Origin: Flavobacteriaceae bacterium
Lineage (GTDB): Bacteria; Bacteroidota; Bacteroidia; Flavobacteriales; Flavobacteriaceae
Assembly (NCBI GenBank): GCA_016744415.1
Contig: JADGEL010000001.1
Span: 558,001 to 622,000, forward strand
Direction: 5' to 3'
Length of the DNA stretch: 64,000 nt
A program made the translations under genes and the position numbers. Shown here in pieces: positions 59,194 through 64,000 of this stretch (the stretch's first letter is position 1; each line of letters opens with the position of its first letter). The notes beneath the pieces are model-generated. The model saw only the letters and a list, made by a program, of their open reading frames with translations. It searched no databases and was not told the DNA's origin.

Positions 59194-59934
59194 ATGTTAA
59201 AAATTGTTATAGTTGATGATGAAAATGATGCATTAGAAGCTTTAGAGTGGAAACTGAACAGATATATAGAAAATGTAGAAATTATTAAATGTCTTTCCCC
59301 GCTAGCTTCAATTGACATAATTAACAAAACCGAACCAGACATTGTTTTTTTAGATATTCAAATGCCAGAAATGGATGGATTTACACTATTAGAAAACCTC
59401 AGTAATCGACAATTTAATTTAATTTTCACCACTGCTCATGATGAGTTTGCATTAAAAGCAATTAAAGTTTCGGCTATTGATTATTTGTTAAAACCTGTTG
59501 ATAAGGATGAATTAATGGAAGCGATTAATAAAATTCAAGAACAGAAAAAAGGTGGCCTTTTAGAAGATAAACTTCAAATGTTATTAGGGAATATAAATGA
59601 AACAGCAAATGATAAAATTAATATATCAGCTGATGGTAAAGTTTATTTGTTAGATAGGAATGATGTAATTATGCTGAAGTCAGACAAAAGCTATACAACA
59701 CTGTTTTTAACTAACGACCAACAAATAGTAGTTTCAAAAACCTTGAAAGAAGTTGAAAAGAAATTTCAATTCTCACAGTTTTTCAGAGTACATAATTCAT
59801 ATTTAATAAATCTAACTCATGTTAAGGAATACCTAAAGGGGCTTGGTGGAGAATTAATTATGAGTAATGGCTATACTGCTGCAATTAGTAGAAATAAAAA
59901 AGCAGAACTATTTAAGAAATTGTACTTAGACTAA
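59194..59934 (+). CDS. LytTR-type response regulator
   Basis: A 246-residue regulator. The receiver domain has the acidic pair in VIVDDEND and the phosphoacceptor D54 in FLDIQMPEMDGF; Lys is in DYLLKPVDKDE. The LytTR DNA-binding domain (about 145-246) shows SDKSYTTLFLTNDQQIVVSK and FFRVHNSYLINLTHVKEYL. Eight bases later begins the LytS-type histidine kinase. A small hairpin (CAACTGAAAAGTTG near 59140) lies 40 bases upstream. Confidence 0.95.
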   Translation: MLKIVIVDDENDALEALEWKLNRYIENVEIIKCLSPLASIDIINKTEPDIVFLDIQMPEMDGFTLLENLSNRQFNLIFTTAHDEFALKAIKVSAIDYLLKPVDKDELMEAINKIQEQKKGGLLEDKLQMLLGNINETANDKINISADGKVYLLDRNDVIMLKSDKSYTTLFLTNDQQIVVSKTLKEVEKKFQFSQFFRVHNSYLINLTHVKEYLKGLGGELIMSNGYTAAISRNKKAELFKKLYLD

Positions 59935-59941
59935 CTAAACT

Positions 59942-61279
59942 ATGTTTACCGATCTTAATTCAGAAATTTTTGCTTGGATACGTGGAGGTCTTTTAATCTT
60001 AGCAATTTATCACTTACTTTTATATTTTCAGAATGGCAAAAAACTATATTTATATTATTGCCTTTACCTGTTAACATTCTTTGCTTTTTTTGCTTCACGT
60101 CTTTTTCAAAATATTGAAAATGATATGATATTAGGATTCTTTTCTATACCCATGTTTTTTCTAACCTCCGCATCATTTTATGCACTAACAAGAACTATTT
60201 TAGAAACAAAATCTAGAATTCCGAAATGGGATCATTATTTTAAAATTGCTGCAGTTGTTTCTGTAGGTGTTGCCTTCTTATTTTTTATTTTACAACTATT
60301 TTTAGGTTCAAAATTCTCATTAAGCTTTGTTAAAATTATAGGGCCATTTTATTATCTATTTGTAATAATTACGGCATTTGTTGTTTTAGAAACAAAATTA
60401 AAATCTGCTATATATTTTAGTGTTTCAACATTTTTATTTGCGATTTTAGGACTTGCTACTTTGATGCAATATTATATTGGAGTAGACCTTTTTTTTGAGA
60501 TAAATATCATTCCAATATTTTTTCTATATATAGGTGCATTTATTCAAAGTATGTCATTTGCTTATATTATAGGGTTGAGCGTAAAGAGAGTAGAAATGCA
60601 AAATAAAAGTGCTGAAATAAAATTAGCATTTAAATATAAAGAATTAGAAGAGTTAAAAATGACAGCTTTACAAAGTCAAATGAATCCTCATTTTCTGTTT
60701 AACTCATTAAATTCTATAAACAATTTTGTTTTAAAAAATGAAATTGAAAAAGCATCAGACTATATTACAAAATTTTCTAGACTAATTCGTGTTATTTTAA
60801 AAAGTTCAACAAGTTTAACGGTTCCGTTTTCTGAAGAGCTAGGAATTCTTTCTCTATACGTAAAATTAGAGCAAATGAGAATCCATGGTGGATTTGAATA
60901 TATTGTAAAAATTGACAAGAACATTCGTTTAGAGGAAATAAAAGTTCCACCGTTATTTTTACAACCGTTTATTGAAAATTCAATTTGGCATGGATTAACG
61001 CATATTGAAGGAGATAAACGCATTTCTCTTACAATTAGTAAAGAGACAGATAATATTATTTGTGAGATAATTGATAATGGGATTGGTATAGATAAAGCGA
61101 GAGCACGATCTCATAAAAAAATAGACAGAAGAAAGTTTTTTGGCACACAGGCAACCGAAAACAGGATACAACTATTATATAAAAAAGCAAATGTTGATAT
61201 TGATGTGAAAGATATATCAGACGCAACATCTTCAGGAACAAAAGTTAGAATTGTTTTTCCACATATTCTAAAGGGATAA
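59942..61279 (+). CDS. LytS-type sensor histidine kinase (7TM N-terminus)
   Basis: A 445-residue kinase. Seven N-terminal membrane helices resemble the 7TMR-DISM module without its extracytoplasmic part; a coiled linker (KYKELEELKMTALQSQ) leads into the His_kinase domain with the phosphoacceptor H250 in MNPHFLFNSLNSI. The HATPase part has PPLFLQPFIENSIWHG and IIDNGIGIDKARARSH. It phosphorylates the LytTR regulator encoded just upstream. The signal is unknown. A weak terminator follows. Confidence 0.94.
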   Translation: MFTDLNSEIFAWIRGGLLILAIYHLLLYFQNGKKLYLYYCLYLLTFFAFFASRLFQNIENDMILGFFSIPMFFLTSASFYALTRTILETKSRIPKWDHYFKIAAVVSVGVAFLFFILQLFLGSKFSLSFVKIIGPFYYLFVIITAFVVLETKLKSAIYFSVSTFLFAILGLATLMQYYIGVDLFFEINIIPIFFLYIGAFIQSMSFAYIIGLSVKRVEMQNKSAEIKLAFKYKELEELKMTALQSQMNPHFLFNSLNSINNFVLKNEIEKASDYITKFSRLIRVILKSSTSLTVPFSEELGILSLYVKLEQMRIHGGFEYIVKIDKNIRLEEIKVPPLFLQPFIENSIWHGLTHIEGDKRISLTISKETDNIICEIIDNGIGIDKARARSHKKIDRRKFFGTQATENRIQLLYKKANVDIDVKDISDATSSGTKVRIVFPHILKG

Positions 61280-61364: not shown

Positions 61365-61372
61365 TATTTTTG
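61365..61372 (+). promoter_or_regulatory. -7 promoter box (TATTTTTG) upstream of the orphan small ORF
   Basis: TATTTTTG matches TAnnTTTG, 56 bases before ATG 61429. The -33 region is not convincing. Confidence 0.35.
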
Positions 61373-61428: not shown

Positions 61429-61674
61429 ATGACATTGATTTCATTTATTATCCCCACAGAAAAAGACATACTTAAAGACTTAAACGAAGAATCTCGTACA
61501 ATTAAATTTATTGGGTCGGCAACCTTTTCTCAAAAACTAGATCAAATAAAATTTTCAAGAACATTTAAACACCGATTTGATAATCAAAATCAATTAAAGG
61601 AAGTGGTTTATTTTAGGAAAGGTCTTGTTTGGAAATTTACTGAAGTAGTTTTATGTGCTGAATTAGCAAGTTAA
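61429..61674 (+). CDS. small orphan protein of unknown function
   Basis: An 81-residue frame (MTLISFIIPTEKDILKDLNE, SATFSQKLDQIKFSRTFKHR, VVYFRKGLVWKFTEVVL). It is charged, has no signal peptide or membrane helix, and matches nothing I recognise. Codon use resembles its neighbours and a promoter box lies upstream, but no conserved context supports it. It may be a remnant or a real small gene. Confidence 0.4.
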   Translation: MTLISFIIPTEKDILKDLNEESRTIKFIGSATFSQKLDQIKFSRTFKHRFDNQNQLKEVVYFRKGLVWKFTEVVLCAELAS

Positions 61675-61762
61675 CAGATTTCTATTAACAACCTATTTAC
61701 CGTTTATTATTCATAATCACCCATTTGTAGTTTTTTTACCTCCATTTTTACATTTAAATAAA

Positions 61763-61789
61763 TTGCAATTAGAATAAGACTTATATTTG
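61763..61789 (+). promoter_or_regulatory. promoter of sRNA-like unit copy 1
   Basis: TTG (61763-61765), 16 bases, TATATTTG (61782-61789). The same spacing and position recur in copy 2. Identity between the copies becomes perfect four bases after the box, where transcription should start. Confidence 0.65.
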
Positions 61790-61792
61790 TTA

Positions 61793-61862
61793 TGTAAATG
61801 AGTCTTTGGGGTTGATTTATTTATAACTCGAATTTAACGAAAGTTGACTTCGAGTTTTTTTT
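61793..61862 (+). ncRNA. putative small RNA, copy 1
   Basis: A predicted RNA of about 65-70 bases, identical over 69 bases with copy 2. It starts at the expected distance from a TTG-N16-TAnnTTTG promoter and ends in a stable hairpin: AACTCGAA pairs with TTCGAGTT, then one mismatch, five more pairs and a GAAA tetraloop, followed by eight T. The 5-prime 30 bases are unstructured and could pair with targets. It also holds a five-codon frame ATG AGT CTT TGG GGT TGA. Not recognised as a known RNA family. Confidence 0.6.
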
Positions 61863-61987
61863 GTTCTAAATATTTAAAGCAAAAAACACAAAGAAGAATG
61901 AAGTTTTTGAAAAACTATTTCTATCAGAATATTGAGCAAACCAAACCATTTATTGTTTTTTTACTTCCGTTTTTGAATTTGAAGTAT

Positions 61988-62014
61988 TTGGTAAATAAAA
62001 ACCTATTATGTTTG
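61988..62014 (+). promoter_or_regulatory. promoter of sRNA-like unit copy 2
   Basis: TTTG ending at 61990, 16 bases, TATGTTTG (62007-62014), exactly 225 bases after the copy 1 elements. Flanking bases differ while both boxes are kept, which argues for selection on the promoter. Confidence 0.65.
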
Positions 62015-62017
62015 TCG

Positions 62018-62086
62018 TGTAAATGAGTCTTTGGGGTTGATTTATTTATAACTCGAATTTAACGAAAGTTGACTTCGAGTTTTTTT
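62018..62086 (+). ncRNA. putative small RNA, copy 2
   Basis: The second 69-base unit, identical to copy 1 through the hairpin and seven T of the terminator; the T run is one base shorter. The 5-prime flank shares only partial similarity with that of copy 1 (TTTTTTTAC then TCC or TCCG), consistent with an older duplication in which only promoter and RNA are conserved. Confidence 0.6.
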
Positions 62087-62401: not shown

Positions 62402-62423
62402 AACGAAATTAATAATGTTAAGA

Positions 62424-64000
62424 ATGAAGAGAATCATTAGTGTAGTAACTTTTTTATTTTTTATTGGTGCTTGGTCACAAACTGATTACTCTAACAATTG
62501 GGAAGATTTTTATTCTTATAATAATGTTAAAGATTTTGTGAAAGTTGACACAAAAATTTATGCATTGGTAGATAATGCCATTTTTATTTATGATGTTTCT
62601 ACAAATGAAATTAATAAAATGTCTTCTGTTAATGGATTGTCTGGAGAAGTAGCCACGAGTATTCATTACAACGCAACCTTTCAAAGGTTAGCAGTTGGGT
62701 ATGCAAATGGGTTGCTCGAAATTGTTGACGTAAATGGAGAGATTACAATCGCTCCAGATATTGCCAATTTCCCTTTAGCTGCTGAAAAAGAAATTACTAA
62801 CATTACAGAATACAATGATATTTTATATCTATCAACTTCCTTTGCAATTGTAGTATATGATATTGGCAACTTAGTTTTTGGAGACACTTATTTTATAGGA
62901 GACCAATCATCAGAGGTAAAAGTGAATGAAACAATTGTTTTTAATGAAACGATTTATGCCGCAACTGAAAATGGAATTTATTCTGCTGATGTTAACAACC
63001 CAAATTTGATTGACTTTAATAATTGGACTAAATTCGATACAAGAAACTTCACATCAATTGTAACTTTTGACAATGAAATTTATATTTCTTTTGGAAGAAA
63101 TTTTTATAGGTTTATATCAACAGGTTCTTTGCAATTAATTCAAAGACTGCCAAATACAATTTTAAGATTAAAGGCTTCTAACGAGTTTTTATCAATAGCA
63201 ATTAAAAGAGAAGCATTTATTTATGATACAGGCTTGAATTTGGTGTCTAATATTATTTCTGATGATACTTCAGATTTTTATTTCGAATTAAATGCAGTTT
63301 TTACAGAAGGGAATACTGCATATCTCTGCACAAAAGAATTCGGAATATTACAAACAGATTTAATAGCTACACAGCCTTTTGTTGAAATTCACCCAGATGG
63401 TCCAACCTCAAATATTGCCTTTTCTATTAGTGTATTAAACGATAATTTATGGGTAGTTTATGGTGGATACTCTTCTTCATATACTCCTTTGAATAATAGG
63501 TTGGGATATAGTCATTTTAATGGAGAAAATTGGGTAAACATTCAGTATGATACAAATTTTCCAGCAAAAAATTTAGTACATGCTACAATTGACCCAAATG
63601 AAGAAAATAAAGTGTATTTGAGTTCTTGGGCAGCAGGAAATAGTGCTCCTTTATCAGGAAATGGTGGGATATTAGTTGTGGAAAATAACGAGCCAATAGT
63701 ATTGTTAGATCAAACCAATAGCGAATTGGAAGATGCAGTTCCAGATAATCCGAATTATAATAGTGTCAGAGTTAACGGATCTGCTTTTGATAGAGAAGGA
63801 AATTTATGGGTTGCCAATGCATGGGTTGATAATATGGTAAAAAAAATGTCACCAAGTGGTGCTTGGTCTAGTTTTAATATTAGTGAATTATTAACTACTG
63901 GAGCAAGAGGTTTAAACGAATTAATTATTGATAAAACAGGGAGTATTTGGATTGGAACTAGAAGAAATGGAGTATTAGTTTTTAATGAAAGAGGAGAACG
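62424..64000 (+). CDS. porZ: type IX secretion system protein PorZ (3-prime end beyond window)
   Basis: The frame is open to the last base. The start chosen gives the signal peptide MKRIISVVTFLFFIGAWSQ; an ATG nine bases earlier (62415) is possible. The mature start NWEDFYSYNNVKDFVKVD and the beta-propeller repeats (NAIFIYDVSTNEINKMSSVN, GLSGEVATSIHYN, IWIGTRRNGVLVF) match the two-component-regulator-propeller layout of PorZ. In Porphyromonas PorZ is part of the type IX attachment complex that joins A-LPS to cargo. About 525 of perhaps 770-800 residues are present; the C-terminal domain lies outside. A T9SS cargo gene is at 32153. Confidence 0.85.
   Translation, partial: MKRIISVVTFLFFIGAWSQTDYSNNWEDFYSYNNVKDFVKVDTKIYALVDNAIFIYDVSTNEINKMSSVNGLSGEVATSIHYNATFQRLAVGYANGLLEIVDVNGEITIAPDIANFPLAAEKEITNITEYNDILYLSTSFAIVVYDIGNLVFGDTYFIGDQSSEVKVNETIVFNETIYAATENGIYSADVNNPNLIDFNNWTKFDTRNFTSIVTFDNEIYISFGRNFYRFISTGSLQLIQRLPNTILRLKASNEFLSIAIKREAFIYDTGLNLVSNIISDDTSDFYFELNAVFTEGNTAYLCTKEFGILQTDLIATQPFVEIHPDGPTSNIAFSISVLNDNLWVVYGGYSSSYTPLNNRLGYSHFNGENWVNIQYDTNFPAKNLVHATIDPNEENKVYLSSWAAGNSAPLSGNGGILVVENNEPIVLLDQTNSELEDAVPDNPNYNSVRVNGSAFDREGNLWVANAWVDNMVKKMSPSGAWSSFNISELLTTGARGLNELIIDKTGSIWIGTRRNGVLVFNERGE

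Follow-up and report, generated by a model that had tools for sequence, protein, structure and literature searches.

A tandem pair of putative regulatory RNA genes behind a LytTR two-component system in Flavobacteriaceae, with a G-rich loop probably directed at C-rich mRNA leaders

The window analyzed here, a stretch of 64,000 nt from a Flavobacteriaceae bacterium, carries two units which are probably tandem genes of a trans-acting regulatory RNA of about 68-70 nt. In the reading we prefer, to which we assign a probability of about 0.6, this RNA is driven by a LytTR regulator, acts independently of Hfq and uses its G-rich loop to pair with C-rich leaders of genes for surface proteins, gliding and type IX secretion. 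The duplicated small regulatory RNA gene suggested in an earlier note on this DNA is supported by the unit's own promoter, a near-invariant 5' hairpin, terminator changes that preserve pairing and synteny; that note had missed the 5' hairpin with its G-rich loop, the linkage to a two-component system, the operator and the likely targets. The features of the locus are as follows.

59194..59934, plus strand: LytTR response regulator (Response_reg and LytTR, Pfam 1.5e-22 and 2.2e-19), 246 aa, proposed from its adjacency as activator of both sRNA promoters
59942..61279, plus strand: histidine kinase (7TMR-DISM_7TM and His_kinase, Pfam), 445 aa
61283..61311, plus strand: degenerate operator upstream of the 81-aa ORF, CCATTTAT followed by CCACAGGT at period 21, found by eye
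61365-61372: TATTTTTG box, 53 bp after the degenerate operator
61429..61674, plus strand: 81-aa ORF between kinase and sRNA, no Pfam or NCBIfam match
61700..61749, plus strand: operator of sRNA copy 1, three repeats (61700-61707, 61721-61728, 61742-61749) at period 21
61763..61789, plus strand: promoter of sRNA copy 1, TTG-N16-TATATTTG, -7 box 53 bp after the second repeat
61793..61862, plus strand: sRNA copy 1, expected +1 about 61794; stem 61793-61825 with loop UUUGGGGUU at 61805-61813, terminator hairpin about 61826-61855, T-run 61855-61862
61946..61974, plus strand: operator of sRNA copy 2, CCATTTAT at 61946-61953 and CCGTTTTT at 61967-61974
61988..62014, plus strand: promoter of sRNA copy 2, TTG-N16-TATGTTTG, 53 bp after CCATTTAT
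62018..62086, plus strand: sRNA copy 2, 69 bases identical to copy 1, loop 62030-62038
62415..64000, plus strand: porZ (type IX secretion; NCBIfam T9SS_PorZ, 1.1e-126), downstream neighbor continuing past the window end

String comparison confirmed that 61793-61861 and 62018-62086, which start 225 bases apart, are exactly identical over 69 bases, and the TTG-N16-TAnnTTTG element described ahead of each is present at both promoter positions listed above. TAnnTTTG is given as the sigma-A consensus of Flavobacterium psychrophilum in PMC9723704. According to fold prediction each unit consists of a 12-bp hairpin with the nine-base loop and a terminator hairpin followed by the T-run; the predicted energy is -22.1 kcal/mol (z -4.9 and -4.85) and none of 200 shuffled sequences was as stable. 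The terminator hairpin with its GAAA loop and T-run was found as previously described, its stem being predicted as 7+5 bp rather than 8+5 bp. The GNRA cap holds for the units of the window and was rejected as a conserved signature, the tetraloop being lost in relatives. Each unit has its own promoter, an intrinsic terminator and no conserved ORF, the last because the ATG of the hairpin is changed in a related locus (L016); the mini-peptide MSLWG that could start there was dismissed, as L016 has ATA at this place with the pairing kept. Rfam 15 gave no match at the gathering threshold in the window, and locally only six sub-threshold ones (best E 1.1), which is in accordance with the previous statement that no named family is known for the unit. 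The RNA belongs to none of the families tested and would be a new family. A search of the unit's own genome with a 371-base query over both units matched only at this place, apart from one 24-base match elsewhere, and this excludes the repeat spread through the genome that had been considered as an alternative. Gene conversion or strong selection may be a likelier source of the identity of the two copies than recent duplication.

The sRNA unit was found by blastn in all 13 other genomes of the same genus that were searched, while its flanks differ, so its presence is not due to chance. The tandem arrangement of the window recurs in four of them (G005, G007, G008 and G009), and in G011 a second copy sits on another contig. 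In G007 (L005), where the two sRNA copies differ from each other, there is a promoter region closely similar to that of copy 2. The covariance search proposed earlier placed the unit in at least 14 of 397 genomes of the family and 6 of 237 genera, a lower bound since the filters were strict and the second helix of the model was shifted by two columns. A pattern scan of a genome collection yielded 59 stretches, mostly from records titled Lutibacter, the others from Urechidicola, Flavicella, Aureivirga, one Gelidibacter bin and Flavobacteriaceae or Bacteroidetes bins. Three of these stretches (L071, L093 and L108) were judged chance matches by eye and by their neighbors and were dropped before the operator, spacing and synteny counts, and L051 was left out of the neighbor count, where it gave no match to the pattern, and of the synteny count. 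No viral contig carried the core pattern of the sRNA, a phage search gave no match to the unit and a plasmid search one weak match (E 1); the viral core GAGTCTTTGGGGTTGAT occurred in eight contigs, in contexts that look like chance.

About 39 bases from the 5' end of the RNA are nearly invariant among relatives, the 5' hairpin with the G-rich loop being the most conserved part, and flanks and terminator stems vary. The Lutibacter-type RNA is about 43 nt longer on its 5' side and there has an extra GGGG hairpin, GUCAA-GAGGGGUU-UUGRC, the second pair of which is U-G in 21, U-A in 13 and C-G in one of 35 sequences. The terminator sequence also varies among these 35 with pairing kept; for six of its pairs there are sequences, at most 11 of the 35, in which both partners differ. 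Across 16 distinct forms, 84.4% of the cells of the main (5') hairpin are standard pairs, more than in slid registers, and its pairs showed no covariation beyond shuffles (69 of 500 shuffles reach the observed value), because nearly all change falls on the 5' strand. The 3' strand hardly varies, partly because the scan pattern that found the loci demands it. GGGGUUGAUUUAUUUAU is the constrained part of the RNA, a result that the scan pattern used to find the loci favors.

A homologue of the 7TMR-DISM kinase lies just upstream of the sRNA on the same strand in 51 of 56 distinct loci with enough upstream sequence; before collapsing there were 82 loci, 11 of which had less than 650 nt upstream. 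Four of the five exceptions are second copies, three of them from Flavicella and a close relative (L060, L068, L052/L088) and one from a Lutibacter bin (L096); the fifth is a bin of the window's genus (L008/L064). Instead of the many dispersed copies without conserved synteny expected of a mobile repeat, the genome of the window has two tandem copies in a setting that is kept among relatives. Homologues of the 81-aa ORF are also found in many related sRNA loci. Genes downstream of the sRNA vary between genera, and several loci have them on the opposite strand. Since the downstream genes differ among relatives, porZ, which starts 329 bp after copy 2, is not considered part of the unit. Among 199 genomes of the family, full-length kinase matches with at least 39% identity fell in seven sRNA carriers and in G154; in the latter the kinase is followed by the operator and then by a homologue of the 81-aa ORF, and no sRNA was seen in spite of the kinase and the operator. 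Variants of the arrangement were also observed: in G005 (L120) the kinase gene is duplicated in tandem beside the tandem sRNAs, and in two genomes of genus g200 (L050, L053) the sRNA lies between two kinase genes.

Upstream of the sRNA promoter, 37 of 64 distinct regions contain a pair of CC[AG]TT[TC][AG]T repeats exactly 21 bp apart, a pair that never appeared in 200 rounds of mononucleotide shuffling. The strict pair is absent from 27 regions, including all seven of the Flavicella type. The distance from the last repeat to TAnnTTTG was 53 in 43 of the 64 regions, 52 in three, 73-75 in eight and 32 in one, and in nine it could not be measured; the eight gaps of 73-75 look as if one repeat had gone unread in an otherwise unchanged geometry. 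The longer RNA of the Lutibacter type is matched by an operator about 43 bases further from the loop. In the window there are three repeats at copy 1 and two at copy 2, with the 53-bp gap kept in both. We compared these repeats with the AgrA-type LytTR consensus as given in PMC8826819. Only one of the five window repeats, ACCGTTTAT at 61699-61707, fits it in all nine positions; the next two repeats of copy 1 fit in seven and those of copy 2 (CCATTTAT, CCGTTTTT) in eight each, levels reached by 0.08% (9/9), 1% (8/9) and 5.5% (7/9) of the 9-mers of the window. By sequence, the two LytTR repeats 21 bp apart upstream of a promoter would correspond to an AgrA-type promoter.

The operator is not confined to the sRNA. 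With at most one mismatch it occurs 8, 12, 10 and 19 times in G000, G005, G009 and G083 (reversed pattern 3, 4, 5 and 2) and 16, 6, 9 and 6 times in G304, G069, G154 and G216 (reversed pattern 4, 1, 1 and 6). An exact operator precedes an ORF of more than 1750 aa with SprB repeats in G083, as well as a giant gene in G304 which is its counterpart by position; further exact operators precede genes for CAP-domain proteins (Pfam for L216 and L217 of G304) and, in G083, for an LRR protein. Some genes behind exact operators lack CCCC. The genome of the window has exact operators ahead of sRNA copy 1 and of a 100-aa ORF adjacent to a CAP gene, and the gene of a 608-aa beta-helix protein is preceded there by one-mismatch operators in tandem. 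For operators in the same orientation, TAnnTTTG is found at 53 for the giant-protein genes (G304, G083) and two G154 genes; for two bshB1-like genes the distances are 78 and 39. With reversed operators, four leaders have TAnnTTTG at 42-43, and the remaining ones have it at another distance or not at all. Genes named bshB1-like by eye follow the operator in three genera, exactly in L153 and L224 and with one mismatch in L167, and the two leaders of this kind that were counted contain no CCCC. By eye, a terminator-like hairpin was also seen before the start codon in the leaders of giant secreted genes (L202, L198, L203), which would suggest additional attenuation.

CCCC was present in 11 of the 20 leaders next to exact operators (27 sites in 3352 nt) and in 4 of 56 window leaders of 200 nt each (P 2.3e-5); GGGG showed no excess (1 of 20 vs 5 of 56). 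The nine operator leaders without CCCC include those of three lpdA genes, two bshB1-like genes and a small ORF of G154. A longer motif, CCCCACAA, lies within 300 nt of an operator (at most one mismatch) in 14 of its 170 occurrences in five genomes, where 0.36 were expected: 3 of 28 in G304 (P 4.6e-5), 5 of 38 in G083 (P 1.3e-7), 1 of 37 in G005 (P 0.078), 1 of 46 in G000 (P 0.049) and 4 of 21 in G009 (P 9.5e-8), the last being the independent case, as the motif was picked after it had been seen beside operators in the other four. Within 1500 nt the numbers are 8, 10, 4, 4 and 7 in G304, G083, G005, G000 and G009 (P <4e-4 each). Enrichment of the motif across whole genomes was rejected and only its clustering near operators stands: forward and reverse occurrences against those of the control were 46/50 in G000, 37/17 in G005, 21/14 in G009, 38/35 in G083, 28/41 in G304 and 191/198 in G031. 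Pairing with the RNA does not account for the ACAA of CCCCACAA. Arrays of it also occur outside ORFs of at least 90 aa (L190:8743-9391 and L191:8791-9011), one of them behind a CAP gene and the other, in a different genome, between lpdA and a peptidase gene at a place without a giant ORF; these could be sponges of the sRNA or gene remnants.

The complement of the loop, AACCCCAAA, occurs 60 times in the genome of the window, two of these being the sRNA genes themselves. The other 58 sites comprise 11 in sense leaders, 14 in sense ORFs, 25 antisense and 8 elsewhere between genes. The share in sense leaders, 11 of 58, exceeds the 3.7% background (P 8e-6), and there is little genome-wide excess (occurrences vs control 60/42 in G000, 50/43 in G005, 34/31 in G009, 74/72 in G304 and 58/39 in G083). 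One of the 11 leaders belongs to gldL (TIGR03513, 2.2e-67), whose site gives the strongest predicted duplex, -23.8 kcal/mol, of 19 non-self intergenic sites. Of the 11, only the leader of the beta-helix gene has an operator within 300 nt when up to two mismatches are allowed; the other ten, that of gldL among them, have none. The longest exact complement of the RNA, 22 nt in a leader of G083 (L229), ends 16 nt before an ATG in a leader that has further CCCC, where a search allowing up to two mismatches detected no operator. The stretch L229:1770-2366 of this Lutibacter bin contains a gene judged by eye to be MarR-like, a small ORF and a CAP-like gene; about nine CCCC sites lie there, the 22-nt complement among them. 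A CAP leader with operator (L217) has a 14-nt exact complement. Elsewhere the longest exact complements are 9-13 nt, level with the sense-strand control, which reaches 13; the lengths of a 9-nt match in a G009 leader and of six pairs in the giant-gene leader of the window's genome are therefore no evidence. Complementarity to mRNA leaders goes beyond background in the leader share and in the 22-nt match, although the bulged complement CCCCNNAAGACT was below its control (11 sites vs 19, with a site in 6 of 12 genomes) and was rejected as a target signature. Ten loci with C-rich leaders gave no Rfam match.

From these results a regulatory chain can be proposed. The LytTR regulator and 7TMR-DISM kinase encoded upstream most likely turn on the sRNA, the regulator working through the direct repeats of 21-bp period whose end lies 53 bp ahead of the -7 box, and the same regulator probably also acts on the operator-bearing genes of secreted proteins and adhesins. 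The RNA would expose UUUGGGGUU in the apical loop, followed by GAUUUAUUUAU, and would pair with CCCC-containing sites in 5' leaders, both of some operator-linked mRNAs and of further genes without operator, such as gldL. Such pairing would proceed without Hfq, since the RNA does not have the genomic background of an Hfq-dependent sRNA: a search for Hfq (PF17209) gave nothing in 14 sRNA carriers, three of them less than 90% complete, and a control search gave a hit in five of 14 well-known genomes. The gene, its predicted structure, its synteny, the repeats, their spacing and the complementarity can all be read from the DNA itself, and from them we infer transcription, binding of the regulator, RNA-RNA pairing and the sign of its effect. 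Sites near the start codons of CAP lipoprotein genes, small ORFs and the LRR protein gene suggest repression of translation, which for any given gene we consider about as likely as not; in the long leader of the SprB-repeat gene the sites come early and could have either effect.

Other explanations have to be considered as well. The RNA and its LytTR operator could be real and the function different from leader pairing, with the C-rich leaders reflecting regulation at the level of DNA or protein that merely resembles targeting. This would fit the CCCCACAA arrays outside leaders, the operator leaders without CCCC, the AACCCCAAA leaders that mostly have no operator and the scarcity of CCCCNNAAGACT. 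We find it unlikely, though deserving some weight, in view of the strand-specific enrichment of the exact loop complement in leaders and of the 22-nt complement in L229. It is also conceivable that under the same LytTR control the GGGG loops bind and titrate a protein, of the RRM RNA-binding type or similar, and that the CCCC leaders serve another factor. Loop number is raised both by the two GGGG hairpins of the Lutibacter-type copies and by the tandem genes in five genomes of the same genus, and carriers in which no Hfq was found agree with such a role; nevertheless the match of the loops to C-rich leaders beside the same operator, and a leader complement as long as 22 nt, make titration quite improbable in our opinion.

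A different question is whether the units are free sRNAs at all or transcribed leaders or attenuators of the gene that follows. They do lie on the same strand as porZ, here and in several relatives. The change of downstream gene between genera, its opposite strand in several loci, the terminator-like hairpin at the end of each unit and the distance to porZ speak for a separate RNA, and we regard the leader interpretation as very improbable. The pairing sRNA under LytTR control, our preferred reading, could be extended: a LytTR system may run a dedicated RNA regulon of gliding and type IX secretion in Hfq-less Flavobacteriaceae, in which one sRNA with a G-rich loop, its effect multiplied through tandem genes or an additional GGGG hairpin, reads arrays of C-rich sites in leaders (those of the SprB-repeat giant protein, CAP lipoproteins and gldL), and the CCCCACAA arrays behind some of these genes serve as built-in sponges. 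This extension is possible but still doubtful.

The arrangement resembles AgrA-RNAIII of staphylococci, in which, as described in PMC8826819, a LytTR regulator and a kinase are encoded beside a regulatory RNA, LytTR direct repeats lie in the promoter region and RNAIII acts on surface and secreted proteins. It differs from it in an RNA of about 70 nt without conserved ORF and of unrelated sequence (by eye), in the 7TM kinase and the tandem copies, and in that no gene of a peptide signal is among the listed neighbors. Rfp18 of F. psychrophilum is likewise a flavobacterial sRNA conserved in its genus, with predicted pairing to mRNAs of metalloproteases and a secreted adhesin; according to PMC9723704 its predicted pairing region is the third stem-loop, and it is by this description, not by sequence, that we set it apart. 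No record titled Flavobacterium appeared in our pattern scan. RepG of Helicobacter pylori is reported to be aimed at a homopolymeric repeat in an mRNA leader as proposed here, with the polarity swapped: here the loop is G-rich and the leaders C-rich, several leaders are concerned and there is a two-component operator. GacA-RsmY/Z systems likewise have a two-component regulator whose effect is carried by small RNAs, in which an exposed loop motif, GGA, recurs. The likeness lies in the regulator and the exposed loops, which here show GGGG and not GGA, and unlike those systems the complementarity to leaders points to base pairing. By analogy, the wiring is like that of AgrA-RNAIII and the choice of targets like that of RepG with the letters swapped. 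Among the titles and abstract openings listed for flavobacterial or Lutibacter sRNA, for LytTR with sRNA or with gliding and for SprB with sRNA, subscription papers and preprints aside, there was no prior description of the system. For few sRNAs of Bacteroidota is a regulator or the logic of target choice known. What the unit offers for testing is a chain from the sensor kinase and the LytTR regulator via the sRNA promoter to the exposed seed and a list of leaders in named organisms; such a chain would link signalling with gliding and with surface proteins that are secreted.

A second, dispersed copy of the RNA is present in Flavicella and a close relative (L052, L060, L068), 44-46 bp behind a 93-aa ORF which we take to be PpnP-like. 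These dispersed copies are without strict operator repeats and are possibly derived from the 3' end of the mRNA of that ORF.
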